Virus record (IMG/VR): IMGVR_UViG_3300013093_000065
Span: 1 to 51,865 of that record
Strand: one strand, 5' to 3'
DNA from: a virus
DNA: 51,865 bases
This document shows positions 3,725 to 40,931 of this stretch, piece by piece. The notes beneath the pieces are model-generated. The model made no database searches. It had not been told where the DNA came from and was given only the letters and a program-made list of their open reading frames with translations. The first letter of the stretch is position 1. Each line of letters begins with the position of its first letter. A program made the position numbers and the translations under genes.

Positions 3725-3991
3725 ATGTTTAATTTAGAAACTAAAACTGGTAAGGCTTTTAAAGCATTGGTACTCGAAGGTCAAACTTTGACTGCCTCAG
3801 AAGCACGTAAGCGTTTTGGCATTGGCAATTTAAGTGCTGAAGTATCACGTATCCGTCAAAGCGGTTTTGCTATCCATGCAAATGGTCGTAAAGCTGGCAA
3901 TGGCGTTCATGTTACTGAGTATGTACATGGCAAACCAAGCCGTAAGGTAATTGCTGCTGGTTACAAAGCATTGGCAGCTGGCTTAGTTTAA
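3725..3991 (+). CDS. Small helix-turn-helix DNA-binding protein
   Basis: An 88-residue basic protein. Residues 18-55 fit a helix-turn-helix: an ALVLEGQTLTASEARKRF first part, a GIG turn, and a recognition-like helix with SAEVSRIRQSGF, followed by a short beta wing (IHANGRK). Phage proteins of this type are small transcription regulators. It is a monocistronic unit with its own promoter (3654), a strong AAGGAG site and a terminator at 4011, which fits a highly expressed regulator. Targets are unknown; the inverted repeats near other promoters in this window are candidates. Confidence 0.75.
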   Translation: MFNLETKTGKAFKALVLEGQTLTASEARKRFGIGNLSAEVSRIRQSGFAIHANGRKAGNGVHVTEYVHGKPSRKVIAAGYKALAAGLV

Positions 3992-4010
3992 TCTAACCCA
4001 GTCTTACCCA

Positions 4011-4035
4011 AAAGCACCGTTCGCGGTGCTTTTTT
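4011..4035 (+). terminator. Rho-independent terminator with TTCG loop
   Basis: AAAGCACCG, loop TTCG, CGGTGCTTT, then a run of T. A perfect nine-pair stem with a very stable UUCG-type tetraloop, 19 bases after the stop of the HTH gene. Confidence 0.92.
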
Positions 4036-4060
4036 CTTGGTTGTAGTAAATATGTAATAT

Positions 4061-4435
4061 ATGCCAAGAAAAGTGTTTAATTTAGAACGCGATTTACGCA
4101 GTACGGATTGGATTATTTCAAAAGTCCGTGCCCATGAGATCTACGCTCAAAATTTATACGCCGCACTATGTAACAATGCCTATGCTCCAAGAGATGTTTG
4201 GGGTTTACTAAGCAATATTACCTGGGACTGTACTTGGCGATATGCGGCTACCTTGGTGTCGGACATTCGCGAAGACGAAAGCTATATTGATTGGTACTGT
4301 TCAGGTACCGGTTTTAAAGGTACAGACTTTACTGGTTTTGTAGAAGAAAGTTATGTTACCGAAGAAATAGAAAAGGATTTCAATACTATTGGATGGTTGT
4401 TAACAACCAGAAGATTTTACGAGTTTCCAGGTTAA
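4061..4435 (+). CDS. Conserved phage protein, paralogue of the gene at 3251
   Basis: A 124-residue protein, clearly homologous to the gene at 3251-3628 (shared YAQNLYAALCN, CTWR/CSWR, DWYCSG and VTEEI blocks). The two copies flank the HTH gene. A GTAAATA late-type motif at 4046-4052 lies upstream, but its distance to the ATG (8 bases) would put the start point just inside the leader. No ribosome site is visible. Function unknown. Confidence 0.75.
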   Translation: MPRKVFNLERDLRSTDWIISKVRAHEIYAQNLYAALCNNAYAPRDVWGLLSNITWDCTWRYAATLVSDIREDESYIDWYCSGTGFKGTDFTGFVEESYVTEEIEKDFNTIGWLLTTRRFYEFPG

Positions 4436-4457
4436 CTATGAATTATAGTAGCCGTTA

Positions 4458-4480
4458 ACGAAATAATTTTTTTATTTCGT
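4458..4480. repeat. AT-rich inverted repeat upstream of the porin gene
   Basis: ACGAAATAA, five-base T loop, TTATTTCGT: a perfect nine-pair arm. It could end transcription from the gene at 4061, but the T run is in the loop rather than after the stem, so a terminator role is doubtful. It sits just before the late-type motif at 4485. Confidence 0.5.
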
Positions 4481-4484
4481 CTGG

Positions 4485-4492
4485 GCTAAATA
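4485..4492 (+). promoter_or_regulatory. T4-like late promoter motif (GCTAAATA) upstream of porin
   Basis: GCTAAATA, identical to the octamer ahead of several virion genes here. Predicted start near 4498. With the sigma70 promoter at 4511 it would give the porin gene both early and late expression. Confidence 0.4.
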
Positions 4493-4510
4493 AATTTGTA
4501 GTTCAAATTA

Positions 4511-4539
4511 TTGACATATATATTTTAGTATGTTAATAT
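4511..4539 (+). promoter_or_regulatory. Strong sigma70-type promoter of the porin gene
   Basis: Consensus TTGACA (4511-4516), 17-base spacer, TAATAT (4534-4539). Predicted start near 4546, giving a leader of about 94 bases before the porin ATG. Confidence 0.8.
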
Positions 4540-4569
4540 CAACCAGTAATTAACACATTACTAACTTTA

Positions 4570-4622
4570 CGAAAATAACATTGAAGATAGTATGATACTA
4601 TCGAATATGCGAAAATAACATT
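4570..4622 (+). repeat. Direct repeat pair around a palindrome in the porin leader
   Basis: CGAAAATAACATT occurs at 4570-4582 and again at 4610-4622, exactly 40 bases apart. Between them is the perfect palindrome GATAGTAT-G-ATACTATC (4586-4602). The second copy directly precedes the AAGG ribosome site. The arrangement suits a regulator binding site or a leader RNA structure controlling porin synthesis. Confidence 0.55.
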
Positions 4623-4639
4623 TAAAAAGGAATTAAACA

Positions 4640-5818
4640 ATGAAGAAGTTATTACTTGCTCTTGGCTTAACCATGTCTATTGGTTTCGCGCAAGCTCAAT
4701 CAAATGTTACCGTATACGGTATCTTGGACGTAGGATATGTTGGTAGTAGTCAACAACTTACTTCCACAGCAGGACAAGCCGCTACTAAAACCACAATCAA
4801 TCAGTTTGGTCAATCAGCAGAACAAACTTCACGGATTGGTTTTAAAGGCAATGAAGACCTTGGTGGCGGAACAAGTGCGTTCTTTACAACTGAGTTTCAG
4901 TTATATCCAGAAGACAATAATCTCTCTGGTAGTACAAATTCAGGTTTGTTGAACCGTCAAACTTTTGTTGGACTTAAACAAACAGGCATTGGCTCTTTTG
5001 CTGTTGGCCGTCAATATACTCCATTGTTTAATGCTGCGGCAGTGACAAATCCCGGTGGATACAACAACGTTGTTGGTGACGTAGTCTATCTGGCCAGTGG
5101 TTCAGGTGCTGCAGGTACAAGTACAGCAACAACTATCACAGGTCAAGAAAACGGTCTTGGTTTTACCAACCGTGCTAACAATGCTATTACATTCCAAACA
5201 GATACTTTCAAAGGTTTTTCTGCTAACGGTATGTATCAGCTAAACAACAAGAACACAACACAGACTGGTGCAGCCGCTGGTGGTGAAACTAATCAATATG
5301 GTTATGGCTTGGCAGTTACTTATGTCTACGACAAATTGTTAATCAATGCCGCTAAACAATCATTCACACAATACACAACAGGCACAGCTGCATCATTCAC
5401 TGATATGAATATTGCTTCTTTTGTAAGTATCAAGGATAGTCAAAACTATGCTGGTGCTACTTATGACTTTGGCATTTTAAAAGCCTATGCTCAATATGTT
5501 AGCCGCACTTTAACATCTACTTTAGATGGTAGTCAGTTTGGTAAACGTACAGCACAACAAATTGGTGTTCGTGGTTACTTTACACCAAAGATTGAAGGTT
5601 GGGCAAGCGTAGGTAACGGTAAATGGGACCAATATGGTTCAAATGCTGGTAGCGTTCCATTCACAGCTTATCAACTTGGTACTAACTACTGGTTAAGCAA
5701 GCGTACTAACTTGTATGCAATCTTTGGTAGTACACAATCGTCTGGCAATGCAGCAACTACCGCTGGTGCAGACAGTTCAAAAGATATGTATGCTGTAGGT
5801 ATGCGTCATACTTTCTAA
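4640..5818 (+). CDS. Outer-membrane porin (Gram-negative porin family)
   Basis: A 392-residue trimeric-porin-type protein. A signal peptide (residues 1-20, MKKLLLALGLTMSIGFAQAQ) is followed by the porin opening NVTVYGILDVGY, a SRIGFKGNEDLGGG block, an NRQTFVGLKQTGIGSFAVGRQY block, alternating beta strands with periplasmic turns, and the C-terminal phenylalanine (MRHTF) needed for outer-membrane insertion. This matches betaproteobacterial porins. It should form a diffusion pore in the host outer membrane. The gene has its own promoter, AAAGGAA ribosome site and terminator. Some lambdoid phages carry porins (for example Lc of PA-2), where the new porin excludes other phages; that role, or improved solute uptake, is inference here. 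Base composition matches the neighbours. Confidence 0.92.
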   Translation: MKKLLLALGLTMSIGFAQAQSNVTVYGILDVGYVGSSQQLTSTAGQAATKTTINQFGQSAEQTSRIGFKGNEDLGGGTSAFFTTEFQLYPEDNNLSGSTNSGLLNRQTFVGLKQTGIGSFAVGRQYTPLFNAAAVTNPGGYNNVVGDVVYLASGSGAAGTSTATTITGQENGLGFTNRANNAITFQTDTFKGFSANGMYQLNNKNTTQTGAAAGGETNQYGYGLAVTYVYDKLLINAAKQSFTQYTTGTAASFTDMNIASFVSIKDSQNYAGATYDFGILKAYAQYVSRTLTSTLDGSQFGKRTAQQIGVRGYFTPKIEGWASVGNGKWDQYGSNAGSVPFTAYQLGTNYWLSKRTNLYAIFGSTQSSGNAATTAGADSSKDMYAVGMRHTF

Positions 5819-6353: not shown

Positions 6354-6569
6354 ATGGACTCTAAATCAAATTGCGTAGTACTTAATACATTTCACCTTAA
6401 ACCTAATCAAATTGAAAACATCATACACTGGTGTAATCGACATTTTGGATCAGATAAATGGAACTTTATAACAGACTTCCCCAGTTACCATTGGAGGTTC
6501 TATTTACCCGACTCGCGATCAGAAACATTATTTAGATTAAAATGGAGTGGAAATGCCAATAACAATTAG
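6354..6569 (+). CDS. Small protein, tandem paralogue family member 1
   Basis: A 71-residue protein and the first of five adjacent genes whose products end alike: an aromatic strand followed by an acidic turn and (E/D)-A/T-LFRLKW. Here the end is WRFYLPDSRSETLFRLKW. The family is small (71-92 residues) and looks like an alpha/beta fold whose C-terminal helix is the conserved part. Function unknown. There is no ribosome site, and the promoter lies almost on the ATG. Confidence 0.7.
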   Translation: MDSKSNCVVLNTFHLKPNQIENIIHWCNRHFGSDKWNFITDFPSYHWRFYLPDSRSETLFRLKWSGNANNN

Positions 6570-6807
6570 AGTAGATTGGGACACCAAGCGAAGTACAGGT
6601 CAAGAGTGGAATGAACTATTAGCCTGGACTGTGGAAACTTATGGTTTACCTGGGGAGAAGGTAAGTTTTCATCCTACACACAATTGGATGGACTTTACAT
6701 TTGATGATGAAAAAGATGCACTTATGTTTCAACTCAAAACAGGCGGACACCAACGTACCAAACAAGAATACACAATAGAATTTGTAAACGGGATAATCAA
6801 TGGTTAG
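6553..6807 (+). CDS. Small protein, tandem paralogue family member 2
   Basis: 84 residues from ATG 6553, chosen because GGAG lies five bases upstream (an in-frame GTG at 6547 is possible). It contains the family signature MDFTFDDEKDALMFQLKTGG near residues 55-75, then an extra C-terminal tail. It overlaps the previous gene by 17 bases. Function unknown. Confidence 0.7.
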   Translation: MPITIRVDWDTKRSTGQEWNELLAWTVETYGLPGEKVSFHPTHNWMDFTFDDEKDALMFQLKTGGHQRTKQEYTIEFVNGIING

Positions 6808-7078
6808 AGAAGGTATATTGGTTAAAGAAATACTCATGGGCGACTGTGATGATCCTTACCTGTATGCGGCTTTTCCTATACACGAATGGGAAAAGACTGA
6901 AGAGTGTGCCTACATTAAAAAAAATTTAGACGAAGGCGACGAACTTGTATTTTTTGTCGACAATGATACATCACATTGGGGTTTTATAGTTCGCATATAT
7001 GCCCCTTTAAAAGGCGAAGCTCTGACATTTTATCGTTTGAAGTATATGGGAGTAAATCAACATGTACGTATGGGATGA
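6800..7078 (+). CDS. Small protein, tandem paralogue family member 3
   Basis: 92 residues, with the signature in the form FIVRIYAPLKGEALTFYRLKYMG near the C-terminus, here with an inserted PLKG turn. Overlaps the upstream gene by 8 bases and the downstream gene by 17. Divergent from its neighbours outside the final 25 residues. Function unknown. Confidence 0.65.
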   Translation: MVREGILVKEILMGDCDDPYLYAAFPIHEWEKTEECAYIKKNLDEGDELVFFVDNDTSHWGFIVRIYAPLKGEALTFYRLKYMGVNQHVRMG

Positions 7079-7319
7079 GGAGAGTCGCAAAAAGTTTGAG
7101 CCAACGCAGGACATGCTCAGTCGATGCCATCGAGTCTTGATCGGCGATCCTGCGTTTCGTATGTGGCAAATGAAACGTTGGTGTCGCGAACAAGATTTAA
7201 GTTTGTTATGGTCCGAGATAATAGAAACAGCCGATGTTAGTATAGAGTTTGATCACGTGGCGGCCTTTTACTTTATCGATGCTAAGGATGCTACTTTGTT
7301 TAGTTTAAAATATCGATGA
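7062..7319 (+). CDS. Small protein, tandem paralogue family member 4
   Basis: 85 residues, ending in FYFIDAKDATLFSLKYR, nearly the same as the end of member 5. The N-terminal half is helical and basic (MWQMKRWCREQDL). Overlaps both neighbours. Function unknown. Confidence 0.7.
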   Translation: MYVWDEESRKKFEPTQDMLSRCHRVLIGDPAFRMWQMKRWCREQDLSLLWSEIIETADVSIEFDHVAAFYFIDAKDATLFSLKYR

Positions 7320-7540
7320 CAAAAGTTGAATTATGGCCGCCGCCTGCTTGGACAGAAGTTATAATTCTGTGGAAGGATATTACAGAAGGGCCACGCTATC
7401 CAATTAAAGAGATACTTGAATGGCTCAGTAGTCATCCAGGTGGCCGATATCATGTACACGGATATAAAAGTACTGAAGGGTTTGCTTTTAGATTTGAAAG
7501 CGAAAATGATGCAACATTATTTAGATTGAGATGGGAATGA
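7316..7540 (+). CDS. Small protein, tandem paralogue family member 5
   Basis: 74 residues, ending in FRFESENDATLFRLRWE. A helix with IKEILEWLSSHP precedes the beta strand, giving the same helix-strand-helix plan as member 4. Its ATG overlaps the previous stop as ATGA, so the set is probably translated in a coupled way. Function unknown. Confidence 0.7.
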   Translation: MTKVELWPPPAWTEVIILWKDITEGPRYPIKEILEWLSSHPGGRYHVHGYKSTEGFAFRFESENDATLFRLRWE

Positions 7541-7809
7541 TAGATTACTATTACGAAATTCGGCCTGATGTAACAGTATTTGGTTGTAGTGTACGCTACC
7601 TTGCACGTTACGAGTTTCATCCTGGTGAAGCAAGTCGCGGTGAATTTAAGTTGCACGACGAAGCTCTAAGGAATAGTCATCGTGTATGGATGCAAAATCG
7701 CAATGGCACATTTTTAGTACAAGAGCGTGGCAGAGATGTACTACGGCCTATTGCTGAACGAGAGTTTGCCTGGATTAAACTACAAGCTCGGGACATTGAA
7801 CAGTTATGA
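7531..7809 (+). CDS. Hypothetical protein, 92 aa
   Basis: Not recognised. The last residues (REFAWIKLQAR) vaguely resemble the LFRLRW end of the five preceding products, so a sixth, more diverged member is possible but not shown. ATG 7531 or ATG 7537 could start it; both lie inside the previous gene. The next ATG overlaps the stop as ATGA. Confidence 0.6.
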   Translation: MGMIDYYYEIRPDVTVFGCSVRYLARYEFHPGEASRGEFKLHDEALRNSHRVWMQNRNGTFLVQERGRDVLRPIAEREFAWIKLQARDIEQL

Positions 7810-8048
7810 ATCCCTATCAGTATCGGATAACCCGGGAGCAATACGAAGAGTTTCTTAAGGACTTGGTGTGGACACGTCTTAAGGCGCCCGACTACCGTTT
7901 TGGACAAGCATTCCTTAACTACTTTCCCGAGATCAGTAAGATTATGCGTGAAGATGGAGACCTGGGCACCCAAAGTGAATATGTATTGTACAATGAAGAA
8001 TGGGAACCAACGGCACGTATGCGATGTGAGCAGTGGGTGGAGAAATGA
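7806..8048 (+). CDS. Hypothetical protein, 80 aa
   Basis: A charged, mostly helical protein (an REQYEEFLKDLVWTRLK segment, then QAFLNYFPEI). Not recognised. ATGA overlaps at both ends place it firmly in the operon that ends with the transporter genes. Confidence 0.65.
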   Translation: MNPYQYRITREQYEEFLKDLVWTRLKAPDYRFGQAFLNYFPEISKIMREDGDLGTQSEYVLYNEEWEPTARMRCEQWVEK

Positions 8049-8284
8049 CTGTAGCTTATAAAGTAGCCGCTGGTTTCGCTGGTAAACGCAGAAGTGCCAG
8101 CTCACGATTTGAGGAGCCGGTAAAGAATCCTTGGGAGCCATATCAGCTAAAGATATTTCCTAAAAAAATTAATGATCGTTGGTATGCGCCAGGAGACATG
8201 GTCTATCGTCGATTTGTATCCAGTCCCGGTGGTGGTTACTGGCAGTATGGTGACGATTTTGACTATTTAAAGTGGCGCTCGTGA
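8045..8284 (+). CDS. Small basic hypothetical protein
   Basis: 79 residues from ATG 8045, favoured over GTG 8033 because GGTGGAG lies just upstream and the ATG overlaps the preceding TGA. The N-terminus is basic (AGKRRSASSRF); the rest is aromatic and beta-like (RWYAPGDMVYRRF, GGGYWQYGDDF). Function unknown. Confidence 0.65.
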   Translation: MTVAYKVAAGFAGKRRSASSRFEEPVKNPWEPYQLKIFPKKINDRWYAPGDMVYRRFVSSPGGGYWQYGDDFDYLKWRS

Positions 8285-8487
8285 TCAATTGGTCTTGGTT
8301 AATTGCTCGTTTTATTTCGGCCCTGGGATCATGGTTAGATGCCAGCAACCTAAGAAATCGTGTATATAAACTTGAACAAGAGAAGGAAATCATGTATACT
8401 GCATTAGAGGATGTACGACGCATGGACCCAGAAGGGCGCATTGGCTGGTATGCCAAATCAGTATTGGATAATATAGATGGGAAATAA
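8281..8487 (+). CDS. Small membrane-anchored coiled-coil protein
   Basis: 68 residues if started at GTG 8281, which overlaps the preceding TGA (GTG 8272 is the alternative). A hydrophobic amphipathic segment (WSWLIARFISALGSWL) is followed by a charged helix (LRNRVYKLEQEKEIMYTALEDV). It overlaps the start of tctB by 11 bases. Whether it helps the transporter is unknown. Confidence 0.55.
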   Translation: MINWSWLIARFISALGSWLDASNLRNRVYKLEQEKEIMYTALEDVRRMDPEGRIGWYAKSVLDNIDGK

Positions 8488-8893
8488 ACAATTACTAATC
8501 GGAGTTACATTTATAGCAATCTCACTGGCCTTTGGCTTGGGAGGATTTGCCTATACTGTCGGAACTCCAGATGATGCGGGGCCCGGGTTCTTTCCCTTGG
8601 TAGTCAGCGTGTCGTTGGGACTTCTTGGCGTATGTTCAGTTATTAAAAGTTTTTTTAACAGAGACACAGTAACATTAAAATTAAGAAACCTTGCAATAAT
8701 TACCGCTTCATTATTGGCCTTTGCTGTTGCAACAGAATATATTAACATTGTTGTTGGTATTGTATTGTTGGTAATTACATCATCGTTTGCCAGTGAAAAA
8801 TATTCAATAAAAAATGTTGTATTGATTTCTGCAGGATTAGTTGTAGTTGCATATCTATTTAAATATCTTTTAGGGCTAAATTTACCACTATGA
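8477..8893 (+). CDS. tctB: Tripartite tricarboxylate transporter small membrane subunit (TctB family)
   Basis: A 138-residue integral membrane protein with four hydrophobic segments (about 6-26, 39-56, 71-104 as a pair, 113-133). The loop after the first segment carries DDAGPGFFPLVVS, close to the family block in which G-P-(G/A)-x-(F/L/W)-P begins the second helix. Length and topology match TctB. It partners TctA in a secondary transporter that takes substrate from a periplasmic binding protein. Its end overlaps the tctA start as ATGA. It sits inside the phage small-gene operon with no gap, which argues against host contamination. Confidence 0.85.
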   Translation: MGNKQLLIGVTFIAISLAFGLGGFAYTVGTPDDAGPGFFPLVVSVSLGLLGVCSVIKSFFNRDTVTLKLRNLAIITASLLAFAVATEYINIVVGIVLLVITSSFASEKYSIKNVVLISAGLVVVAYLFKYLLGLNLPL

Positions 8894-10389
8894 TAGACAC
8901 CTTAAATTATCTTGTAATGGGATTTGGCCATGCCCTTACTGTTCAAAATTTACTTTATTGCGCCATTGGGTGTTTCATCGGAACGTTAATAGGGCTACTA
9001 CCTGGTCTTGGACCAATTTCTACTATTAGCCTATTATTGCCACTGACTTATACAATGCCCACTACAGGTGCCCTTATTATGCTTGCCGGCATTTACTATG
9101 GCGCACAGTATGGAGATAGTGTCAGTGCTATTACTATGAAGATTCCCCACGCATCAAGCATAGTTGCCTGTATAGATGGATATCAAATGCATCTCAATGG
9201 GCAAACAGGTCTGGCCTTGTTTACTGCCGGTGTTAGTAGTTTCATAGGCGGAACAGTTGCTGCTGTAGTAATTGTATTTTTTGCACCTGTGTTGGGAGAA
9301 ATGTCATTCTTATTTGGCCCAAATGAATACTGTATGCTGATGCTGTTGGGCTTTGTCTGCGTTAGTTTGATTACCACAGGAAGTCTGCTCAATGGACTTG
9401 GCATGGTGTCTATAGGAATATTAGTCGGCATGGTTGGTACAGATGTCAACAGTGGTGTGACTCGTTACGCCATGGGCCTACCATTCTTAATGGACGGAAT
9501 AGGAATCATCAGTGTAGCAATAGGTAGCTTTGGCCTGGCTGAAATAATTAAAAATTTAGACAATCGAGATGAACGTACACCCTTTACAGGCAATATCAAA
9601 TTGATTCCAACCTGGGCAGAGTTTAAACGTATCATACCTTCGGCATTGCGTGGTAGCGTTGTTGGTAGTTTCTTGGGATTATTACCTGGAGGTGGCCCGA
9701 CTATTGCTCAGTACGGTGCTTATGCTGTAGACAAAAAGTTTAGTCGATATCGAGATGAAATGGGCAAGGGTGCAATAGAAGGAGTTGCCGGACAGGCCGC
9801 TGCAGATGAAGCCGCAGCTCGTACAAGTTTTATTCCTTTATTATCAATTGGCATTCCTGAAAATGCTGTTATGGCCTTGATGTTAGGTGCGTTAATGATC
9901 AAAGGCATCACACCAGGTCCGCAGATGATTACCAAACACTCAGAAGTGTTTTGGGGTCTGATTGCTTCCATGTGGATTGGCAATGTGTTCTTGTTGATAT
10001 TAAACGTGCCACTGGTCAAATACTGGTTAAGTATTTTTAAGATTCCTTATAGTGTACTTTTTCCTTGTATTTTATTCTTTTGTTGCTTAGGTACATTCAG
10101 TGGCAATAACAATATCAGCGACATCTATACTACGGCTATATTTGGTATCATGGGCTATTGGTTTTTAAAATTGGGACTTGAAGCGGCTCCGCTGATGTTG
10201 GGCTATATTTTAGGACCCATGCTGGAAGAACACTTTAGACGTGCTATGATGATCAGCAGGGGTAGCTTCAGCCCGTTTTGGGAACGCCCAATTAGCTGTA
10301 CTATGTTGATTTTAATAGGATTTTTTATTGTTTATAGCCTATATTCCTGGTTGACCAATAAAGGAAGAAGTGCTATAATAAAAGTGTAG
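8890..10389 (+). CDS. tctA: Tripartite tricarboxylate transporter large membrane subunit (TctA family)
   Basis: A 499-residue polytopic inner-membrane protein of the usual TctA length. The two signature loops of the inverted repeat are present: GLLPGLGP (35-42) and GLLPGGGP (263-270). The block IPLLSIGIPENAVMALMLGALMIKGITPGPQ (about 315-345) corresponds to the conserved substrate-translocation region. TctA uses ion gradients to import carboxylates such as citrate delivered by TctC. No TctC gene is present in the window; a host TctC could serve. The region 298-312, where host proteins often have an ESANNAA-type string, reads ADEAAAR here, a divergence worth noting. Last gene of its operon; a promoter for the next gene lies inside its 3' end. 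Confidence 0.92.
   Translation: MIDTLNYLVMGFGHALTVQNLLYCAIGCFIGTLIGLLPGLGPISTISLLLPLTYTMPTTGALIMLAGIYYGAQYGDSVSAITMKIPHASSIVACIDGYQMHLNGQTGLALFTAGVSSFIGGTVAAVVIVFFAPVLGEMSFLFGPNEYCMLMLLGFVCVSLITTGSLLNGLGMVSIGILVGMVGTDVNSGVTRYAMGLPFLMDGIGIISVAIGSFGLAEIIKNLDNRDERTPFTGNIKLIPTWAEFKRIIPSALRGSVVGSFLGLLPGGGPTIAQYGAYAVDKKFSRYRDEMGKGAIEGVAGQAAADEAAARTSFIPLLSIGIPENAVMALMLGALMIKGITPGPQMITKHSEVFWGLIASMWIGNVFLLILNVPLVKYWLSIFKIPYSVLFPCILFFCCLGTFSGNNNISDIYTTAIFGIMGYWFLKLGLEAAPLMLGYILGPMLEEHFRRAMMISRGSFSPFWERPISCTMLILIGFFIVYSLYSWLTNKGRSAIIKV
10351..10379 (+). promoter_or_regulatory. Sigma70-type promoter inside the 3' end of tctA
   Basis: TTGACC (10351-10356), 17-base spacer, extended TGC-TATAAT (10374-10379). 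It shares TTGACCAATAAA and GTGCTATAATA with the promoter at 34996. Predicted +1 about 10386, serving the gene at 10422. Confidence 0.75.
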
Positions 10390-10421: not shown

Positions 10422-10670
10422 ATGGTAAAATTAAATAAGTATGTAGTAAAAGCAACAATTCAAACTGCGGCATTCTTTGCTGTAGCGGTTACAATATCAT
10501 CCGTGACCGCTTTGATATTAGAATATCTTCAACCCACAGGAACCCAAATTTTGGGAACCTTGGCTATTGTGGCCATGTTGTTTTGCATCTATAATATGAT
10601 CAAAATACAAGCTGGTATTTTAGAATCACGAGACAAATTAAATAAACAAATCGACAAAGTAGTAAAATGA
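10422..10670 (+). CDS. Small two-helix membrane protein
   Basis: 82 residues with two hydrophobic segments (about 13-33 and 43-61) and a charged C-terminal helix (ILESRDKLNKQIDKVVK). GGAAAG lies upstream of the ATG. Holins can look like this, but the lysis genes are 30 kb away and its promoter is early-type, so I do not call it one. Function unknown; it may modify the inner membrane. Confidence 0.65.
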   Translation: MVKLNKYVVKATIQTAAFFAVAVTISSVTALILEYLQPTGTQILGTLAIVAMLFCIYNMIKIQAGILESRDKLNKQIDKVVK

Positions 10671-11338
10671 AAATCTATATCTCTAACTATCGCAATCATT
10701 GGCTGTCACCCTATACAATCCTAAAGACTGTATGTTTTTGGGAACGGGACGAGGACGTATTTTACAACCACGAAGATAAACCCGGACACAAATATGATCG
10801 CTGGGTTGAACTTTTAGATCCCGTCTGTGGTGCATTACGCAAGTTTCTTGACCTTGTACACCCCAGGATTAACTATATTAAAATTGATCGTTATGACACT
10901 TGGTCAATGGATCATACACTAAGTCCCATTATCTTGCCTATGCTTCGACAGTTGCGTGATACCAAACACGGTGCTCCGCATGTCGATGACGAAGATGTTC
11001 CAGACTTGCTAAAGTCCACTTCAGCACCGCCCAAAGAAAATGATTGGGACACAGATGACAATTGGTTTAAGCGTTGGGACTATGTACTCAACGAAATGAT
11101 TTTTGCATTTGAACATAAAGTAGACGATTCGTGGGAAGATGCATTCCGTACAGGTAAAATGAGTCATCGAACAGTTGCCTGTGAATGGGACGAGAACGGT
11201 AAAGCTACAATGTACCAGTGGGAAGAACTACCGGACCATACTTACAAATATGACTATGATGGTGCTAACAAAGTATACGAACGTATTCAAAACGGCTTTT
11301 GCTTGTTTGGAAAATATTATCAAAACTTGTGGGATTAA
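10667..11338 (+). CDS. Conserved phage protein, unknown function
   Basis: A 223-residue acidic, aromatic-rich protein. Recognisable blocks are KIDRYDTWSMDHTLSPIILP, a GAPHVDDEDVP stretch and a WDYVLNEMIFAFEH helix. From memory these blocks recur in hypothetical proteins of T4-like phages from aquatic bacteria, always without a function. Asp/His/Glu in conserved blocks hint at a metal site. It overlaps the upstream membrane-protein gene as ATGA. Confidence 0.7.
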   Translation: MKIYISNYRNHWLSPYTILKTVCFWERDEDVFYNHEDKPGHKYDRWVELLDPVCGALRKFLDLVHPRINYIKIDRYDTWSMDHTLSPIILPMLRQLRDTKHGAPHVDDEDVPDLLKSTSAPPKENDWDTDDNWFKRWDYVLNEMIFAFEHKVDDSWEDAFRTGKMSHRTVACEWDENGKATMYQWEELPDHTYKYDYDGANKVYERIQNGFCLFGKYYQNLWD

Positions 11339-13121: not shown

Positions 13122-14445
13122 TGCACTGGTCATATACGACCATATTACAATCCCTGATGTAGACTACAAACAACGCATAGTTGACATTACAGAATTCTTT
13201 GTAAAACCCGTTGTGGGATTTGATCTATATCGCACTGGTAATTTAACTGAAACGCTGTCGGGGTTAGCACAACGGGGATATCAGTGGGCTGTAGTCAATG
13301 CCCTGGGACACGCTGTTAATAGTCCAACAATTTACAAAGAAATTATCGACTATAGTGTTGAAAATAATTATCCTGTAACGGCACATATTATTTTTAGACC
13401 AGAAAATTATCCCTCGATTGATCCTCAATTTGTAGTGGTCAATCTAAAGACCTGGCAAGACTTAGGCAGTCCAGCATTTGAAGAGCGTCGTATACCGGCA
13501 GTATTTGATTCTTTTGAAGTTGACAGAAGTCCCGAAAACGCACACCACGATTACACACCCTATTGGATCAAGGCTCTGCCAAACACTAATAAATCATATG
13601 GTATATCTACAAGACCGTTTGGCAGTCTGGTTGTACAAAAATTTTTAGAAGCAGGCCATACAGTCAACGGTATCAGTCAGTCTATTAGACAATCTAAATG
13701 GAACTTGTATCCAAACATTAACTATGAAAAATTACAACCATTTTTCAAAGACGGAACAGTAACCTATAACGTAGGACAAGTACCTGAAATAATTGAAAGA
13801 GTACTGGGCGAAAAAGAATCGTTAAAAAATACAGTCTACATACTTAACAGTGAAAAATTGTATTCACCGAGCCCACAGTTGTCTGGACCTATTGATCACT
13901 TTATAGGTGTTGCCAGCGGATTTAAGACCGTACTACTGTTAAACAAACACGGATTTGCTGACCATACAAAAGTTACTTATGTAGACGTCAGCACAGCAGG
14001 ACTTGATTATCAACAGTACCTGATCAATGAATGGGACGGAGATATTGACCTATATCAGCAGACTGTTGACCTTTATCAAAGTCGACACCCTGAATATAGA
14101 TATGCCTGGAGAGATTGGCTTGAATGGAATAATGAAATCGATGCATTCTTAGCAGGATCTAATTTGACCAAGAGTCAATTTAAAGACCTTTGGTCAAGAT
14201 ATCGCAAACTGACATTTAATTTTGTTGTTGTAGATGTATTAAACAATCCCGAACAATTAGTCAACGAATTAACAACAGACTCTAAAAATGTTTACATATG
14301 GTTGAGCAATGCATTTGATATGCAGTATACAAGATTTTTGTTTGGCAAAGAATATACACAGCAAAAATTCAATCAACTACTTGATCAATTAAAAACTCAT
14401 AATTGCCTGGTTGAGTCCTGCGGCAGATTTTATACTGTATCGTAG
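13111..14445 (+). CDS. Large hypothetical protein, Rossmann-like character
   Basis: 444 residues with no recognised family. The first 130 residues alternate strand and helix (LVIYDHITIP, WAVVNALGHA, PQFVVVNLK). A middle segment (residues 240-330) contains TVYILNSEKLY, FKTVLLLNKHGF and TKVTYVDVSTAGLDYQQYL, which looks like a nucleotide or SAM-binding alpha/beta domain with an acidic strand end. Methyltransferase or sugar-transfer activity is a guess. The start is a TTG (13111) overlapping the previous gene; no in-frame ATG exists nearby. It converges with the minus-strand gene at 14430, overlapping by 16 bases. Confidence 0.65.
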   Translation: MLNNALVIYDHITIPDVDYKQRIVDITEFFVKPVVGFDLYRTGNLTETLSGLAQRGYQWAVVNALGHAVNSPTIYKEIIDYSVENNYPVTAHIIFRPENYPSIDPQFVVVNLKTWQDLGSPAFEERRIPAVFDSFEVDRSPENAHHDYTPYWIKALPNTNKSYGISTRPFGSLVVQKFLEAGHTVNGISQSIRQSKWNLYPNINYEKLQPFFKDGTVTYNVGQVPEIIERVLGEKESLKNTVYILNSEKLYSPSPQLSGPIDHFIGVASGFKTVLLLNKHGFADHTKVTYVDVSTAGLDYQQYLINEWDGDIDLYQQTVDLYQSRHPEYRYAWRDWLEWNNEIDAFLAGSNLTKSQFKDLWSRYRKLTFNFVVVDVLNNPEQLVNELTTDSKNVYIWLSNAFDMQYTRFLFGKEYTQQKFNQLLDQLKTHNCLVESCGRFYTVS

Positions 14446-21195: not shown

Positions 21196-22794
21196 ATGGC
21201 AACCACTGTGCCATCCGATATCAGTAAACAACTACTGATCAGCATCTACGTTAAACGAGACGTTCACGACAACGGCATGACCTTAAAGGAATATGCCGAT
21301 GCTGTTATTGCCGGTACACATCCAATTTTAGATCATGATGAATATGTGTATCAATTTGGCGCCATACAAGAAGAAATTGATTTGGTAGTTAATTGGGCAA
21401 CTGCCAATGGTCTACAGGTTATTTCGTCTGATGCAGGAATAGCAACAGTTAAACTACAAGGTACCGTAGGATTGTTCAACAGTTTGTTTAATATCACATT
21501 AGTTGATGTAACTGATGACACAAGAACTTATGTAAATTATACAGGGACTGTTACTATTCCCAGTGCCATCATAGGCGTTGTAGAAAATGTATTGGGCTTT
21601 GATCAAAGTTTTGTGGCCACCAAACACGCAGTTACCGTTCCGCTCAACGCTACTAACCCCGATACAGTCAATCCAAACTACTCTGGTGCTGTTACTCCTG
21701 TTGACGTAGCTACAGCATATAATTTACCCGCAGGCGATGGTTATGGTGGATGTATTGGAATTTTTGAATTAACATATTCTGGTTACGTCACCGGATATAG
21801 TACAACCGATGTAACCAATAGTTTTAGTCGCATTGGTTTGACTGCTCCAACTATTGTAAACATAAATGTCGACGGAGCCTCTGCAAGTACTACCAGCGAC
21901 GCTGAAAGTATGTTAGACATTTACTGTGCTGGTGCAGTTGCACCTCGAGCAAAAATAGCCTACTATACAGCACCCAACGGCGGAACAACCGGCATTAATG
22001 ATAATATTCTTGCTGCTGCTGCGGATACTGTAAATAATCCCAGCGTGTTGAGTATTAGTTGGGGAATAGGCGATGGCAATTCTTTTGACACCGCCATGCA
22101 AACTTGTGTAGTCAAGGGAATTACAGTTATTGTAAGTTCCGGAGACCACGGGGCAACGGGCGGTGCAATCGATTCCAGCAGTTGTACCAGCCCTTACATG
22201 ATCAGTGCAGGTGGCACAAATATTGGAATTACCAGTGGTACAAAAATAGGCGAGTATGCCTGGGTCAGCAGTGGCGGCGGAGTTAGTTCTTCTCAACCAA
22301 GACCAAGTTGGCAAAATGGATTGACCTATACTACTAAAACCAACACCGGAACTTTGGGTACACCAACTGCCCTACCGCGTCGAGGTATTCCCGATATCAG
22401 TGCACCAGCAGATCCTTACACAGGATATCAATTTTATGTAAACGGTATACTACAACAATATGGTGGAACCAGTGCTGCCGCTCCGTTTTTAGCCGGGGCT
22501 ATAGTTAGATTAAATCAATTATTGGGCAAAAGAATTAGTTTACCAATGTCTACTTTTTACGGAAATACCACAGCATTTACAGACATTACCGGAGGCGATA
22601 ACATCAGCGGTTATTCAATTGGTTATGCAGCTACCACTGGATGGGACGCTGCCACTGGGTTAGGTGTTATAAATGGCCCTAATTTCTACAAATTATTTAA
22701 AACTGGCTCGACTTTTCCAAGACAAAACTACGGTTTTAGACCCACAACTGGCGTCGGTTATCCCAGACCTTATCAGAAACTTACCGGTCGTTAA
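21196..22794 (+). CDS. Peptidase S53 (sedolisin/kumamolisin family) with propeptide
   Basis: 532 residues. Residues 1-145 resemble the pro-kumamolisin activation domain, with a FGFxQ-like junction. The catalytic residues of the family are all present: E237 and D241 (DAESMLDIYCAG, the normal four-residue spacing), D317 (VSSGDHGATGG, oxyanion Asp) and S426 (YGGTSAAAPFLAG). SISWGIGD and a C-terminal DITGG...DAATGLG calcium site complete the fold. S53 enzymes are acid endopeptidases that self-activate. No signal peptide is visible. It lies between two fibre genes, two bases after the first, with GGAG before its ATG, so it is probably a virion protein that processes fibres or digests host surface protein. 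Either role is inference. Confidence 0.9.
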   Translation: MATTVPSDISKQLLISIYVKRDVHDNGMTLKEYADAVIAGTHPILDHDEYVYQFGAIQEEIDLVVNWATANGLQVISSDAGIATVKLQGTVGLFNSLFNITLVDVTDDTRTYVNYTGTVTIPSAIIGVVENVLGFDQSFVATKHAVTVPLNATNPDTVNPNYSGAVTPVDVATAYNLPAGDGYGGCIGIFELTYSGYVTGYSTTDVTNSFSRIGLTAPTIVNINVDGASASTTSDAESMLDIYCAGAVAPRAKIAYYTAPNGGTTGINDNILAAAADTVNNPSVLSISWGIGDGNSFDTAMQTCVVKGITVIVSSGDHGATGGAIDSSSCTSPYMISAGGTNIGITSGTKIGEYAWVSSGGGVSSSQPRPSWQNGLTYTTKTNTGTLGTPTALPRRGIPDISAPADPYTGYQFYVNGILQQYGGTSAAAPFLAGAIVRLNQLLGKRISLPMSTFYGNTTAFTDITGGDNISGYSIGYAATTGWDAATGLGVINGPNFYKLFKTGSTFPRQNYGFRPTTGVGYPRPYQKLTGR

Positions 22795-22854: not shown

Positions 22855-24891
22855 ATGACCGTATCAATCGTTACCGTTAACACCAGCACACCAAACAGCG
22901 GTGGTGGCGACACTATCTATACCGCTTTTAGCAAAGTTAATAATAATACCGGCAATTTGGCCTTAGCAGTTAATAATCTGCAGGCAACCTATGCTAACAC
23001 AAGCTATGGTGTATTTGCCAACATTACTGTTACCAATCAAGTAATTGGACGTATGAACTTTAGTTCGGCAGGCGGCGGCGGCGTGTTTGTTGATGGTAGC
23101 CCTGTTGCAACTTCTGCTGCTTCGTTTACGGGCGGTAATGTACCAAGTCAAGCTAATTTTATCGCAACTACCAGCAGCACAAGCAAAACAACTGGTGCCG
23201 TTGTAGTCTATGGTGGCATGGGCGTTGCTCAAGATGTAAACATAGGTGGCTCAGTTAATTCTACAGGCGACAGTACAATTGGTGGTAACTTAACTGTCCA
23301 AGGAGCAAAAGACAGTTCAAACAGCTCTACTGGAGCAATAGTTGTTACTGGTGGTTTGGGTGTAGGTAAAAATCTAAACGCTGGACAAAATATATATGTT
23401 GGCGGTGCAGCCAGTGTTACTGGTACACTCAGCGCAGGTGGTGACACAACTATATCATCTACAACAATAAGCGTTGGTTCTACATCAGGTGCATTAATTG
23501 TGTCCGGTGGTACAGGTATCGCTGGCAACCTATACATTGGCGGAACAACTAACACTCAAGATTTAAATGTCGCTGGTAATATTACCGTTACTGGTAACGC
23601 GGTATTAGGATCGCAAACTGTTACTGTTACAGACAATTTAATTGAATTACACACTTATGCAAATTTGGCACCGTTAACGTCCGACGATGGCAAAGACATT
23701 GGTATTCGTTTCCATTATTATCGTGCAGGTGGACTTGGTGACAAAGAAGCAGCGTTAACCCTTGCACACGATACCAACGCAATGGAATTTTATATCACTG
23801 CAACCGAAACAGCAGGACAAATTTCAGGCACCTATGGTACTTACAAAGGCGGTGCTGTTATTGCTGCAAATACTACAGCGGCCACAAGTACCTCAACAGG
23901 TGCTCTACAAGTAGCAGGTGGCGCAGGTATTGTTGGAAATTTATATGTTGGTGGAAATATTATATCCACCAGCACTGGCTTTACACAAGTTGCTTCTGGT
24001 AATTCAGCACAACGTCCAAATGGTCCAAACAATGGTATGATACGCTATAACAGCGACATTACCAGCTTTGAAGGTTACTATGCTGGTGCATGGTCAAGTC
24101 TTGGCGGGGTTAAATCAGTTGATGGCAAGGCATATATACAAGCAGAAAATTCTGCGGGTGCCGGTGACGATGTATTACGTTTTTATGCTGGAGATTCTGG
24201 ATCAAGTACACAGGTAATGTGGGCCAGCACAAGTAACATTAAAATATTACCCACTACAACATCAACCAGTACTACTACCGGCGCACTTCAAGTAGCTGGT
24301 GGCGTTGGTGTTGCCGGTAATATCTACTCTGGCGGTACTGTTAGTGCTACTTCTGTTACAGCAACAAACTTAACAGGAACTCTGCAAACAGCCTCACAAA
24401 CAAATATTACATCAGTAGGTACCTTAAGTGGATTAACAGTCAGCGCCGCTATTGTACCAAATGGTAACGGTACGGTTACATTGGGCTCATCAGGCGCTTG
24501 GTGGAGTAGCATTTACGGTACTGCTGTTCACGCACAGTACGCTGACTTAGCAGAAAAATATCTTGCCGACGCAGATTATGATGTTGGTACTGTTGTTGCT
24601 GTTGGTGGCAATAAAGAAGTTACAGCCTGCCAAGCAGGTGATTTGGCAATTGGAGCTGTTAGTGCTAATCCAGCATTTAAAATGAATGACGGCCTAACCA
24701 ACGGAACATTTATTGCACTTAAAGGTCGTGTGCCAGTTAAGGTAGTTGGTCCCGTAGTCAAAGGACAACGATTAATAGCCGGCGCCAGTGGATGTGCTAC
24801 CGCAGTTTTGCAATCCAATGATGTATTTGCTATAGCATTAGAAACTAATAATGATACTGGTGTTAAATTAGTTGAAGCAGTAATTCTTTAA
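22855..24891 (+). CDS. Tail-fibre-like protein with repeated beta modules
   Basis: 678 residues. The N-terminus (GGGDTIYTAFSKVNNNTGNL) resembles the GDxLxxAFxKxNxN module of the gene at 18015. At least five repeats follow of the form (S)TSTGALxVxGGxGVxGNLYxGG, about residues 98-125, 155-185, 200-228, 337-365 and 470-500, likely beta-helical or triple-stranded. The C-terminal domain (YADLAEKYLADADYDVGTVV to the end) is the shape I associate with fibre and G2-type C-terminal domains of phages; self-cleavage is possible but no catalytic pair is identified. Confidence 0.82.
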   Translation: MTVSIVTVNTSTPNSGGGDTIYTAFSKVNNNTGNLALAVNNLQATYANTSYGVFANITVTNQVIGRMNFSSAGGGGVFVDGSPVATSAASFTGGNVPSQANFIATTSSTSKTTGAVVVYGGMGVAQDVNIGGSVNSTGDSTIGGNLTVQGAKDSSNSSTGAIVVTGGLGVGKNLNAGQNIYVGGAASVTGTLSAGGDTTISSTTISVGSTSGALIVSGGTGIAGNLYIGGTTNTQDLNVAGNITVTGNAVLGSQTVTVTDNLIELHTYANLAPLTSDDGKDIGIRFHYYRAGGLGDKEAALTLAHDTNAMEFYITATETAGQISGTYGTYKGGAVIAANTTAATSTSTGALQVAGGAGIVGNLYVGGNIISTSTGFTQVASGNSAQRPNGPNNGMIRYNSDITSFEGYYAGAWSSLGGVKSVDGKAYIQAENSAGAGDDVLRFYAGDSGSSTQVMWASTSNIKILPTTTSTSTTTGALQVAGGVGVAGNIYSGGTVSATSVTATNLTGTLQTASQTNITSVGTLSGLTVSAAIVPNGNGTVTLGSSGAWWSSIYGTAVHAQYADLAEKYLADADYDVGTVVAVGGNKEVTACQAGDLAIGAVSANPAFKMNDGLTNGTFIALKGRVPVKVVGPVVKGQRLIAGASGCATAVLQSNDVFAIALETNNDTGVKLVEAVIL

Positions 24892-24900
24892 GGTTTAACA

Positions 24901-27789
24901 ATGGAACACCCATACCCAATTTGGACTACTCCCGCAGGAAGCCTTGGGATATTACCCGAGAACAATTTCTATGAGTTCCAATTGGCAGCTAACAGCCAAG
25001 GTACTGGCGCCTTAACCTACAGTCATATTTCAGGAACTTTACCTCCAGGCATACACCTAACTCCAGCAGGCCTATTAGAAGGTGTGCCAGTGGTAGTTGA
25101 TGCTACTACACCGAGCAATAGAGATTATTCGTTTACTATTCGTGCTAAAAATCAATATTTGAATGTTGCCGACCGTACATTTTCAATCACAGTTAGTAAT
25201 ATTCTTCCTCCACAGATTACACCAAGAACTACAAACTTAGGTGACTATTTTGATGGATCATTTTTTAGCCTACAGTTATACGCAACAGAAGTAGATCCAA
25301 ATGCCACACTGACCTGGACACTACTCAATGGAACTTTACCCAATGGTATTTCGTTATCACCATCGGGCCTGTTGTCGGGATTTTTGTATCCTGTACCAAC
25401 AGTCGGGGCAGCCGGATTAACCAACTACGATAATACTGCCTATAACGATTTTGGCTACGACAATGATCCATTGTACAGAACTCAAAATTATTCGTTTACA
25501 ATTTCTGTAAATGATGGCGCTAATACCGATTCTTTAAATTACAAATTAAAAGTTACAGCCAAGGGAACTTGGACTGCCGATGATAACATAGATACAGTCG
25601 ATGACAGTCTTACCATTGACCACGATAATATATATTTGCCTATTGTAACAACACCTCCGGGTAGTTTACCTACTTTACGTTGTGGCAGTAATTTTGCATT
25701 TCAATTTAAAGCCATTGACCCCAACGGAGATAGTATATCATTCCAATTAACTAATCCTGGTACAAGCCCATTTGACGAAAACGGTATTGATAATCAAACC
25801 TTAACCGGTGGCCATTGGGTATTTTCTGGTGGCGGATTGGCTATTAACGCAGGCGGAACAACACCCGGTACTGGCTTTGATTCTACAGCATTTGACCAAG
25901 AAGCATTATCTTTACCAGCAGGGTTAACACTTGATTCAAATACTGGTTGGTTCTCTGGTCATTTGCCACTACAGACAGAATCGTCAATTACCTACAGTTT
26001 TATCGTACAAGTATACAAAACCGATAGACCTTTATATGTTAGCCTTCCACAGATTTATTATCTAACTGTTATAGGTGACATAAACAATACAATTACATGG
26101 ACAACCCCCAGCGACCTTGGCACTATTGACAACGGTGCTGTTAGTGAACTGTCCATTTCAGCAGTTAGCGAAACAGGCAAAGACTTAATTTATACACTGG
26201 CTCCACCAAGTAATCAAAACAAAAAAGATTATGGTATTAGAGATAGTAGCATAGTCAGTAAATTACCACAGGGATTAAAACTGTTACCGTCAGGATTAAT
26301 TTCAGGTCGAGCAAGTTTTGAATATTTTAGTTTAGATGCTGGAACAACTACTATCGATGGTAACAAGTCTACCTTTGATGATACTTATAAATTTACAGTA
26401 TTAGCCGAAGCGTCAGACAAATCTGTATCAAGCACAAAAACATTTACTATTCAATTAAAGAATTATAACTTAAAACCATACGAAAACTTATACTTAAAAG
26501 CATTGCCAACGCTTGATCAACGCCAGACATTCCTGGACATTGTTAATAATAAAGACATATTCCCAGACAATTTAATTTATCGCTCTGATGATCCTTGGTT
26601 TGGCCGTGCCCGAGATATTCGTAGTTTATTCTTACCAGGCATAGAACCAAGTATGTTAGCGGACTATGCGGCGGCAATGGGAACCAACCATTTTAATAAA
26701 CGTATAGAGTTCGGCGATGTCAGAACTGCACGAGCAGTTGATGCCAACTTTAATGTCAAGTATGAAGTGGTATACATTCCTTTGTTAGATAACGAAACTT
26801 ATAAAGGCAATAGTCCAGCAAATATAAGTAAGGTCAATTACGGTATTAATTATACCAATGGCTCGTCAACTGGATTTTCTGCTAATGTTTATCCAAACAG
26901 TTTCCAAAATATGCAGTCGGCAATTAGCAGTCATTTAGGCTATGCTAACCAAGGCGCATTACCAGACTGGATGTCCAGCCCGCAAACTGACAAAAAAGTA
27001 TTAGGCTTCACTCGAGCTATTGTTTTAGCCTACACAGTACCAGGGGCCAGCTCATTGATCGCATATCGCTTGAAAGCCAATGGCATTGAATTTAACAATA
27101 TTGACTTTGTAGCCGATAGATATGACCTTGATAATACCTATAGTTCTCACTTTGATATTAATCGAGGTAAATTTAAAGTCAGTACAGAAACTACATTTGA
27201 TCGAATCTATAGAGTTGGTGCTGTTAGTCACGTGGTAGACTATGCTATTTCTATATTACCGTTTAATCGTGTAAACAATCAAACCTTAGATTCAATACAG
27301 GCAGTGGGCGGATTTGACGGAGTATTAAATATTACCGACGGACAAACATTAATTTTTTATCAACAAGAAAATTTCTTCAATGCCGGCGCTAACGACGGAT
27401 GGACATTACCAAATTCTTCAGTGATTCCGGGGTACTTAGAAAACTTAGCCAACCCATCTGTACCTAACGAACGAGGCGGAATCTGGAGAATTAACATTGA
27501 TCCAACAACTAACATAGTAACGCTGACATTTGTAACACCGGTAACTATAAGTAGTCAAATCCAGGTTAATTTAGGTAAAACACACGCATCCAGCATATTG
27601 TATTATAATCCTGTGGTGCAACCTGGGCAAACTGTGCCGGCATATAGTTTGGTATTGCATACCAATACAGCAAAACCAACGGTATTTGATAACCATGCAA
27701 CTGTATTCCTCACCAACCGAGATCAATACGGCAAACCTGAAGTTGGCGACACTTACTTAAAATTTCCTAAAACCCAAGTTTTACAATAA
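24901..27789 (+). CDS. Large virion protein with putative-Ig (He_PIG) repeats
   Basis: 962 residues. The first 500 residues hold four modules ending in LPPGIHLTPAGLLEG, LPNGISLSPSGLLSG, LPAGLTLDSNTGWFSG and LPQGLKLLPSGLISG, which is the He_PIG-type immunoglobulin-like repeat. The second half is different, with a DDPWFGRARDIRSLF stretch, YxL-rich strands and an ending with a KFPKTQVLQ tail. Ig-like repeats in phage virions bind carbohydrates weakly on the host surface. AAGG precedes its ATG by eight bases. Located between fibre genes, so a tail or decoration protein is inferred. Confidence 0.8.
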   Translation: MEHPYPIWTTPAGSLGILPENNFYEFQLAANSQGTGALTYSHISGTLPPGIHLTPAGLLEGVPVVVDATTPSNRDYSFTIRAKNQYLNVADRTFSITVSNILPPQITPRTTNLGDYFDGSFFSLQLYATEVDPNATLTWTLLNGTLPNGISLSPSGLLSGFLYPVPTVGAAGLTNYDNTAYNDFGYDNDPLYRTQNYSFTISVNDGANTDSLNYKLKVTAKGTWTADDNIDTVDDSLTIDHDNIYLPIVTTPPGSLPTLRCGSNFAFQFKAIDPNGDSISFQLTNPGTSPFDENGIDNQTLTGGHWVFSGGGLAINAGGTTPGTGFDSTAFDQEALSLPAGLTLDSNTGWFSGHLPLQTESSITYSFIVQVYKTDRPLYVSLPQIYYLTVIGDINNTITWTTPSDLGTIDNGAVSELSISAVSETGKDLIYTLAPPSNQNKKDYGIRDSSIVSKLPQGLKLLPSGLISGRASFEYFSLDAGTTTIDGNKSTFDDTYKFTVLAEASDKSVSSTKTFTIQLKNYNLKPYENLYLKALPTLDQRQTFLDIVNNKDIFPDNLIYRSDDPWFGRARDIRSLFLPGIEPSMLADYAAAMGTNHFNKRIEFGDVRTARAVDANFNVKYEVVYIPLLDNETYKGNSPANISKVNYGINYTNGSSTGFSANVYPNSFQNMQSAISSHLGYANQGALPDWMSSPQTDKKVLGFTRAIVLAYTVPGASSLIAYRLKANGIEFNNIDFVADRYDLDNTYSSHFDINRGKFKVSTETTFDRIYRVGAVSHVVDYAISILPFNRVNNQTLDSIQAVGGFDGVLNITDGQTLIFYQQENFFNAGANDGWTLPNSSVIPGYLENLANPSVPNERGGIWRINIDPTTNIVTLTFVTPVTISSQIQVNLGKTHASSILYYNPVVQPGQTVPAYSLVLHTNTAKPTVFDNHATVFLTNRDQYGKPEVGDTYLKFPKTQVLQ

Positions 27790-27817
27790 ATATTGGTGTA
27801 ACACCAGCGAAATGTAA

Positions 27818-27825
27818 GCTAAATA
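27818..27825 (+). promoter_or_regulatory. T4-like late promoter motif
   Basis: GCTAAATA, predicted +1 near 27831. A TGGAG ribosome site and ATG 27853 follow. Confidence 0.55.
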
Positions 27826-27852
27826 ATAAGATAATACTGGAGTATTTAAATA

Positions 27853-38901: not shown

Positions 38902-39498
38902 ATGACCGAATTATCTAAATCCTGTAAAACTATTAAAGATGTTATTGAAAATACCAAGAATATTTTCATGACAGACAGTAGCATTAATACACTATTAGAC
39001 TTTGAACGTATTATCGACGAACTTGATATCTATGCGTTTGATCACTGGAAACAAGGTGAATTAGTTGAAGGCCCTGTATACGAAAAGTATTTTGTAACCT
39101 GTACTTTTATGTGGCCATTTAAGACCAAGCCCGACACACGCGGCGCAAAGCGTTTAGCAGACTATGGCTGTGTTATCAAATACAAACGCGACGCTTTAGA
39201 ATACCCAATGAAGTTAAAAACACCCAACGATTTTGTACCAGGTACAAAAATGCCAAAAATGGCTAAAGCACCAATTTGGTTGGTTACAGTTACAGTACCT
39301 AAAAAATTAATGCAGGATATCCACCAAGGTAGCTTAGAGTTAGAAAACGAAAACTTAAACTCCGAAGATATTGAACAAAGCTACGAACAAGGTCTGGATG
39401 ATAAGATGTATCAACAGGGCAATCGAGCACCCGAGCAACAAGCACAAGCACCTGCACCTAACGCAGGCGCTGCTCCACAACCCGGTCAAGGAATGTAA
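38902..39498 (+). CDS. Hypothetical protein, possible virion component
   Basis: 198 residues. Residues 25-150 form a mixed fold (DELDIYAFDHWKQGELVEG, then FVTCTFMWPFKTKPDTRG) and the last 35 residues are Gln/Ala/Pro-rich and disordered. Late-type promoter and adjacency to the next gene suggest a structural or assembly role. Not recognised. Confidence 0.65.
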   Translation: MTELSKSCKTIKDVIENTKNIFMTDSSINTLLDFERIIDELDIYAFDHWKQGELVEGPVYEKYFVTCTFMWPFKTKPDTRGAKRLADYGCVIKYKRDALEYPMKLKTPNDFVPGTKMPKMAKAPIWLVTVTVPKKLMQDIHQGSLELENENLNSEDIEQSYEQGLDDKMYQQGNRAPEQQAQAPAPNAGAAPQPGQGM

Positions 39499-39499
39499 T

Positions 39500-40039: not shown

Positions 40040-40045
40040 AAATTA

Positions 40046-40894: not shown

Positions 40895-40897
40895 AAC

Positions 40898-40905
40898 GGT
40901 AAATA
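40898..40905 (+). promoter_or_regulatory. T4-like late promoter motif before the lysis region
   Basis: GGTAAATA, predicted +1 near 40911; AAGGAG and ATG 40932 follow. Confidence 0.55.
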
Positions 40906-40931
40906 TTAGTATCAAATATTAAGGAGACAAT

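Follow-up and report, generated by a model that had tools for sequence, protein, structure and literature searches.

The closest described relatives of the locus reported here are the TctCBA transporter of Salmonella and BctCBA of Bordetella pertussis, together with the stand-alone TctBA pairs of Burkholderiales such as Bordetella, Achromobacter and Variovorax, in which an expansion of orphan TctC (Bug) receptors is known (PMC5812351, PMC5994714). Our locus shares with TctCBA and BctCBA the TctA and TctB families, TctC-family proteins are encoded on sister phages, and the tctC-tctB-tctA order occurs in some phages. Unlike these systems, it is carried by a phage, its lineage keeps tctC many kilobases from tctBA and in two diverse copies, and no adjacent regulator was seen. 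The stand-alone Burkholderiales pairs provide the nearest bacterial relatives of its TctA (71-75% identical) and likewise consist of tctB-tctA without a neighbouring tctC. They are, however, chromosomal and accompanied by dozens of host receptors, whereas the phage proteins form a separate clade that is 82% identical internally.

Among viruses, SUP05 viral contigs have yielded a tctA domain hit that was listed as a putative auxiliary metabolic gene, its role being stated as unknown (Roux et al., 2014, PMC4164917), a statement repeated in a review (PMC6359870). Like the present case it places a TctA-type gene on a viral contig, and it differs in being a domain hit alone, with no TctB or TctC described. 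This was the sole phage-related mention in the literature searched, which comprised sources other than subscription papers and preprints. A first-pass annotation of the DNA analysed here, which knew of no established phage example, was thus nearly right with regard to the literature; IMG/VR, by contrast, holds dozens of contigs with TctA genes. Cyanophages encode PstS, a phosphate receptor. PstS compares with our locus as a phage-carried uptake component that may add to the import capacity of the infected host; it differs in being an ABC receptor for phosphate, whereas here the membrane carrier is phage-encoded and receptors and a porin occur in the same lineage. Other phosphorus-acquisition genes carried by phages are comparable in the same way (PMC10987575).

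The DNA analysed here (the window) is the complete IMG/VR virus record IMGVR_UViG_3300013093_000065, 51,865 bases long, in which the phage genome itself is incomplete. The features of the transporter region are collected in Table 1.

Table 1. Features of the transporter region and the porin gene in the window
Feature	Coordinates	Strand	Evidence
General outer-membrane porin, Burkholderiales type	4640..5818	+	PF13609, E 5e-33
Short phage ORF, 3' end overlapping the tctB start (coupling)	8272..8487	+	ORF list; relatives in G003 and G002
tctB, small membrane subunit of tripartite tricarboxylate transporter	8477..8893	+	PF07331, 138 aa
tctA, large membrane subunit, presumed solute carrier	8890..10389	+	PF01970 full length, 499 aa
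Short ORF with hydrophobic segments, directly 3' of tctA, conserved neighbour	10422..10670	+	Relative in G003
ORF following 10422..10670, same strand as tctBA	10667..11338	+	ORF list

The two membrane subunits named in the first-pass annotation are genuine and intact by Pfam, and they lie amid phage genes. The translational coupling proposed there is fitted by the ATGA overlap of tctB and tctA (8890-8893) and by the start of tctB within the last 11 bases of the preceding ORF. The proposal that tctA ends the operon did not hold, since the two ORFs behind it continue the run on the same strand; as a run of short same-strand ORFs (6354-8487) also precedes tctBA, tctA lies inside the gene run. Phage genes recognized in the window using PHROGs encode a clamp loader (PHROG 168), PhoH (PHROG 170) and a ClpB-like ATPase (PHROG 4871); TctA, TctB and the porin fall in none of the PHROGs families. 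As a pair of host-derived transport genes set between phage genes on a phage genome, tctBA is a putative auxiliary metabolic gene pair. The nearest isolate relatives of the clamp loader belong to 285-288 kb Pseudomonas phages of the PA5oct group (58% identity), and the full phage genome may therefore far exceed the window. A search for the T4-type late promoter TATAAATA was uninformative, with 3 matches against 5.5 expected. Elsewhere in the window, an ORF amid tail-fibre-like genes (21196-22794) contains a GGTSAAAP serine-peptidase (sedolisin-like) motif, read by eye.

The locus recurs in related IMG/VR contigs. Sister contig G001 (127 kb) is 99.3% identical to window positions 1868-33660 in one collinear block of 31.8 kb and extends beyond the left end of the window, base 1 of which corresponds to about G001:33158. 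Three further contigs, G003 (158 kb), G002 and G005, are about 65-80% identical to the window in their aligned stretches, and their TctA proteins are 82% identical to that of the window, compared with 59% for G004. In G003, about 70% identical, tctBA is followed by relatives of the 10422 and 10667 ORFs, as in the window, with the former (115100-115348) straight after tctA; the short ORF that overlaps tctB has its relative at 110635-110856, and another within the nucleotide match to G002. The first-pass annotation had raised the possibility of a chimera at 8477 or 10389. Both tctBA junctions fall inside the 31.8 kb match to the independent contig G001 and the gene order recurs in G003, which rules out assembly chimerism or host contamination. 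A tryptophan halogenase family gene (PF04820, E 1e-84) lies a few ORFs upstream of tctB in G003 (111099-112676).

We then assessed the integrity of the two subunits. TctB matched its profile with an E value of 8.8e-15 (55.5 bits against a cut-off of 29.1) and has four strongly hydrophobic segments, as expected of the small four-segment TTT membrane subunit. TctA matched the whole of its profile (E 4.4e-140, 467 bits, positions 1-423 of 423), and both glycine-rich stretches, GLLPGLGP (residue 35) and GLLPGGGP (residue 263), are there. Key residues, the loss of which had been raised as a possible objection, are kept at 131 of the 132 near-invariant positions (columns at least 97% conserved among 68 bacterial TctA), the sole exception being F275Y. 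Strict hydropathy gave eight hydrophobic segments, about 12 transmembrane helices being the trait of the TTT family, and an AlphaFold2 model (pLDDT 83.8, pTM 0.85) is almost entirely helical, many of its helices being long. Neither sequence nor fold searches of the PDB copy used returned a solved relative of TctA, and fold comparison with viral predicted structures likewise gave no match (fold, E <= 0.001 in both); the mechanism of TctA is thus not readable from the model.

Because synonymous sites are saturated in dN/dS comparisons of the diverged phages, selection was measured on the close pair of the window and G001 alone. All 17 differences in the transporter genes are synonymous (15 in tctA and 2 in tctB, none non-synonymous), which has a probability of about 2e-11 in the absence of constraint, given about 23% synonymous sites; the corresponding counts pooled over all shared ORFs were 148.5 synonymous versus 60.5 non-synonymous. 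The tctBA pair is maintained by purifying selection in the phage. The ORF directly behind tctA is unchanged between the two contigs.

The first-pass annotation described the operon as being without TctC, and a profile search with PF03401 indeed found none in the window. The same search of the entire sister records, however, returned two copies each in G001, G003 and G005, which rules out a true absence of TctC from the phage lineage; as the window record is incomplete and its continuation in G001 encodes two TctC, the lack of TctC in the window does not extend to the lineage. The G001 copies (42862-43842 and 41189-42151, on the strand corresponding to the window + strand) lie 8-11 kb past the left end of the window and are mutually about 21% identical, and TctC proteins are diverse across the sister phages. 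One of the two TctC-like ORFs in G003 falls under the Pfam cut-off, and in G005 one tctC is intact and the second split. Within the window lineage tctC is not adjacent to tctBA and sits at different places in G001 and G003. Since the leftmost 1.35 kb of the window is merely 80% identical to G001, TctC is established for the sister phage and unproven for the window phage itself.

All intact phage TctC proteins examined start with a positively charged, hydrophobic signal-like stretch, as judged from their N-terminal sequences. The first G001 protein (TctC_a) matched BugE (2dvz, E 2e-32) and ten more TctC-family receptors by sequence. The 17 best PDB matches to its AlphaFold2 model (pLDDT 88) were all TctC/Bug receptors (E <= 1.1e-17), led by BugE, the terephthalate-binding protein (TBP) and MatC and also including TphC and BugD, with the next match at 8e-8. 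The sister-phage TctC proteins are predicted, from these N-termini and the modelled fold, to be exported TctC/Bug-type receptors.

Genes of an SGGxDS (PP-loop-like) family and genes for HxD...H proteins recur interspersed with tctC (G001 39364-45019, G003 135514-142131, G005 23795-28261, L174:2205-5433 and L123:7722-9532). The names 'PP-loop ATPase' and '2OG dioxygenase' for these two groups were rejected as by-eye motif readings, as the proteins tested from G001 matched nothing in Pfam or PHROGs. A TRAP transporter in place of a TTT was likewise considered and rejected: DctP-like receptors occur in G003, G016 and G017, yet none of 15 records contains DctM. Such DctP-type genes are located at G003 3982-4953 and 138895-139873 (the second copy split) and at L128:6203-7144 and 13194-14150. 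The DctP-type receptors of these phages have no signal-like N-terminus and no DctM partner in their records; they would remain cytoplasmic, perhaps as small-molecule binders or sponges.

The porin encoded upstream of tctBA is common to the window, G001 and L171 (99-100% identical), differs between window and G001 by 18 synonymous and 4 non-synonymous changes, and recurs at 72-74% identity in phage contigs L173 and L174; it has no match among isolate phage records. In L174 it lies 1.2 kb from tctC (PF03401, E 2e-32), and that record gave no TctA match. It is possible that the porin and TctC/TctBA form a joint route from the outer to the inner membrane. Curli-type genes occur in the same phages (G001 80291-83067, G003 63029-65761 and L117:8628-12007), with CsgG (PF03783) accompanied in G001 by small exported and repeat proteins. 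Curli secretion genes of this kind, as present in G001 and G003, are known from the pelagimyophages and the methylophage Melnitz, which are aquatic myophages; a term search of both papers found no tricarboxylate transporter or porin (PMC7029224, PMC9004378). G001 also encodes a CHASE2 sensor fused to a guanylate/adenylate cyclase domain (72072-74126, i.e., L018:12072-14126), with a relative in G003 from 73632.

To place the transporter we built a TctA tree of 83 proteins (IQ-TREE, 503 columns). The window, L003 and L004 proteins form one phage clade (support 100/97) beside 41 Burkholderiales-type sequences (100/99), the join between the two being weak (89/36). The relationship to host sequences for which the first-pass annotation had proposed a tree is thus one with Burkholderiales TctBA, from within a phage clade of its own. 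Phage TctA proteins are scattered over the tree, requiring five changes, four of them forced by well-supported branches, with the caution that some branches are long, and this suggests that phages captured TctA several times. A permuted tmRNA of the Betaproteobacteria family RF01850 was found in G001, G003 and G005 (138-166 bits, gathering threshold 84). Together with the TctA ancestry it points to a betaproteobacterial host, and the host of this large tailed phage is probably a member of the Burkholderiales. The tmRNAs, of the two-piece type, are located at L017:4979-5389 (G001), L019:9274-9668 (G003) and L023:8276-8627 (G005), just upstream of the tctC cluster in G001 and G005, and their tag peptides differ among the three sister phages (ANDEQFALAA, ANDSQFALAA and ANDSVYALAA).

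IMG/VR was scanned with two alignments of phage TctA, of which the first gave 17 loci and the second 41. Once two partial records and those with TctA at contig base 1, which are likely provirus edges, are dropped, about 35 of the latter are left, several of them being copies of one phage from separate assemblies. An uninterrupted tctC-tctB-tctA arrangement is present in L117/L118, L180 and L208/L209, with the TctC and TctB of L117 and L208 exceeding the Pfam cut-offs; several phages thus have either tctCBA or a tctA accompanied by tctC, and some phage records contain TctA and no detectable TctC. In four records (182, 98, 316 and 168 kb) the contig with TctA also encodes the T4-type capsid protein Gp23, which places TctA in T4-like phages; Gp23 gave no match in G001, G003 and G005, all three of which are fragments. 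TctC-like ORFs in L207, L210, L211 and L212, detected by our own HMM only, were not counted as confirmed (L207 and L210 gave no Pfam match), and the score in L200 was just under the Pfam cut-off (26.7 versus 27). INPHARED matches to TctA were less than 40% identical and came from a 691 kb Salmonella contig, short unannotated fragments and faecal contigs; they were considered unsafe and not used. L123, which has a TctBA pair, also contains a second, distant TctA (571-2807, 25% identical) directly followed by a TctC-like gene.

Altogether, we consider it probable that the phage carries a tripartite tricarboxylate transporter by which the infected cell takes up carboxylates with the aid of receptors and a porin. 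TctBA would be made from the phage genome during infection and inserted into the inner membrane, where periplasmic TctC receptors, of which the sister phage has two, would capture small di- or tricarboxylates or acidic amino acids and TctA would import them using an ion or proton gradient. The imported acids may serve as a source of carbon, energy or precursors at a time when host gene expression is shut down. Entry through the outer membrane would be widened by the phage porin, and phage TctBA may also accept the many orphan TctC/Bug receptors of the host. It is tempting to go further and speculate on a whole envelope-spanning import line in large aquatic phages, made up of the porin, several exported TctC of differing specificity and a TctBA that also serves host receptors, which would be installed to redirect the carbon diet of the cell and would have been captured more than once by T4-like and larger phages; this fuller version we regard as possible, short of probable.

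A narrower alternative is that the phage supplies just TctBA and relies on orphan TctC/Bug receptors of the host, its own TctC serving otherwise. The use of host Burkholderiales receptors, suggested in the first-pass annotation, is plausible in itself: tctB lies beside tctA in 79 of the 80 closest bacterial loci, with a tctC-like ORF within 5 kb in only a handful, and TctC proteins far outnumber TctA in five bacterial genomes (115/7, 64/5, 21/3, 26/4 and 11/2, i.e., 11-115 receptors against 2-7 permeases). For these reasons phage TctBA may use host receptors. A shared permease has been proposed for Bordetella-type expansions (PMC5994714), the tree sets the window TctA beside stand-alone bacterial TctBA, and TctA occurs without detectable TctC in some phages. 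Exclusive reliance on the host nevertheless seems unlikely, given the TctC with signal-like N-termini on the 99.3% identical sister phage and other relatives and the contiguous tctCBA of several phages. Phage TctBA appears to be of a kind that serves receptors encoded elsewhere; the lineage brings receptors as well, and the two uses are compatible.

Superinfection exclusion or membrane remodelling, in which the porin and TctBA would take the place of, or hide, envelope proteins of the host that rival phages exploit, any transport being incidental, is in our view very unlikely. A phage-borne porin is known from the lambdoid phage PA-2, and the co-occurrence of porin, curli-type and transporter genes does suggest envelope remodelling; an inner-membrane TctBA, however, is not a typical phage receptor, and exclusion fits poorly with the retained near-invariant TctA positions and the existence of TctC partners. 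Slightly less credible again is that phage TctC, perhaps with TctBA, reads the nutrient state of the host as a carboxylate sensor. Phage TctC could be sensors and not transport partners, since BctC acts as a receptor in signalling as well as in transport, working with a sensor kinase in Bordetella (PMC5812351), and G001 encodes the CHASE2-guanylate cyclase, which is a membrane protein and has a sensor domain; nothing was found, however, that links TctC to the cyclase, and sensing leaves the conserved, complete TctA carrier and the selection on TctA and TctB unexplained. Host DNA misjoined to a phage contig, or a decaying passenger gene, would accord with the bacterial ancestry of tctBA and with the TctA genes at contig position 1 in L119, L124 and L126, which look like host genes at provirus edges, but can largely be dismissed in view of the identical order in G001 and in contigs about 70% identical, the well-supported phage-only clade, the unbroken frames and the 17:0 ratio of synonymous to non-synonymous changes.

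Most known phage metabolic genes concern photosynthesis, nucleotides or phosphate. If phage-borne carboxylate import is borne out, a phage would come equipped with a secondary carrier, capture proteins and a porin for organic acids, and infected cells would be re-plumbed for different carbon, a point of relevance to the flow of carbon in waters. It also touches on the puzzle of betaproteobacteria with dozens of orphan receptors and few carriers, for which the small phage set, with its one carrier and two receptors, could provide a test. This group of phages probably rebuilds part of the feeding machinery of its host during infection.
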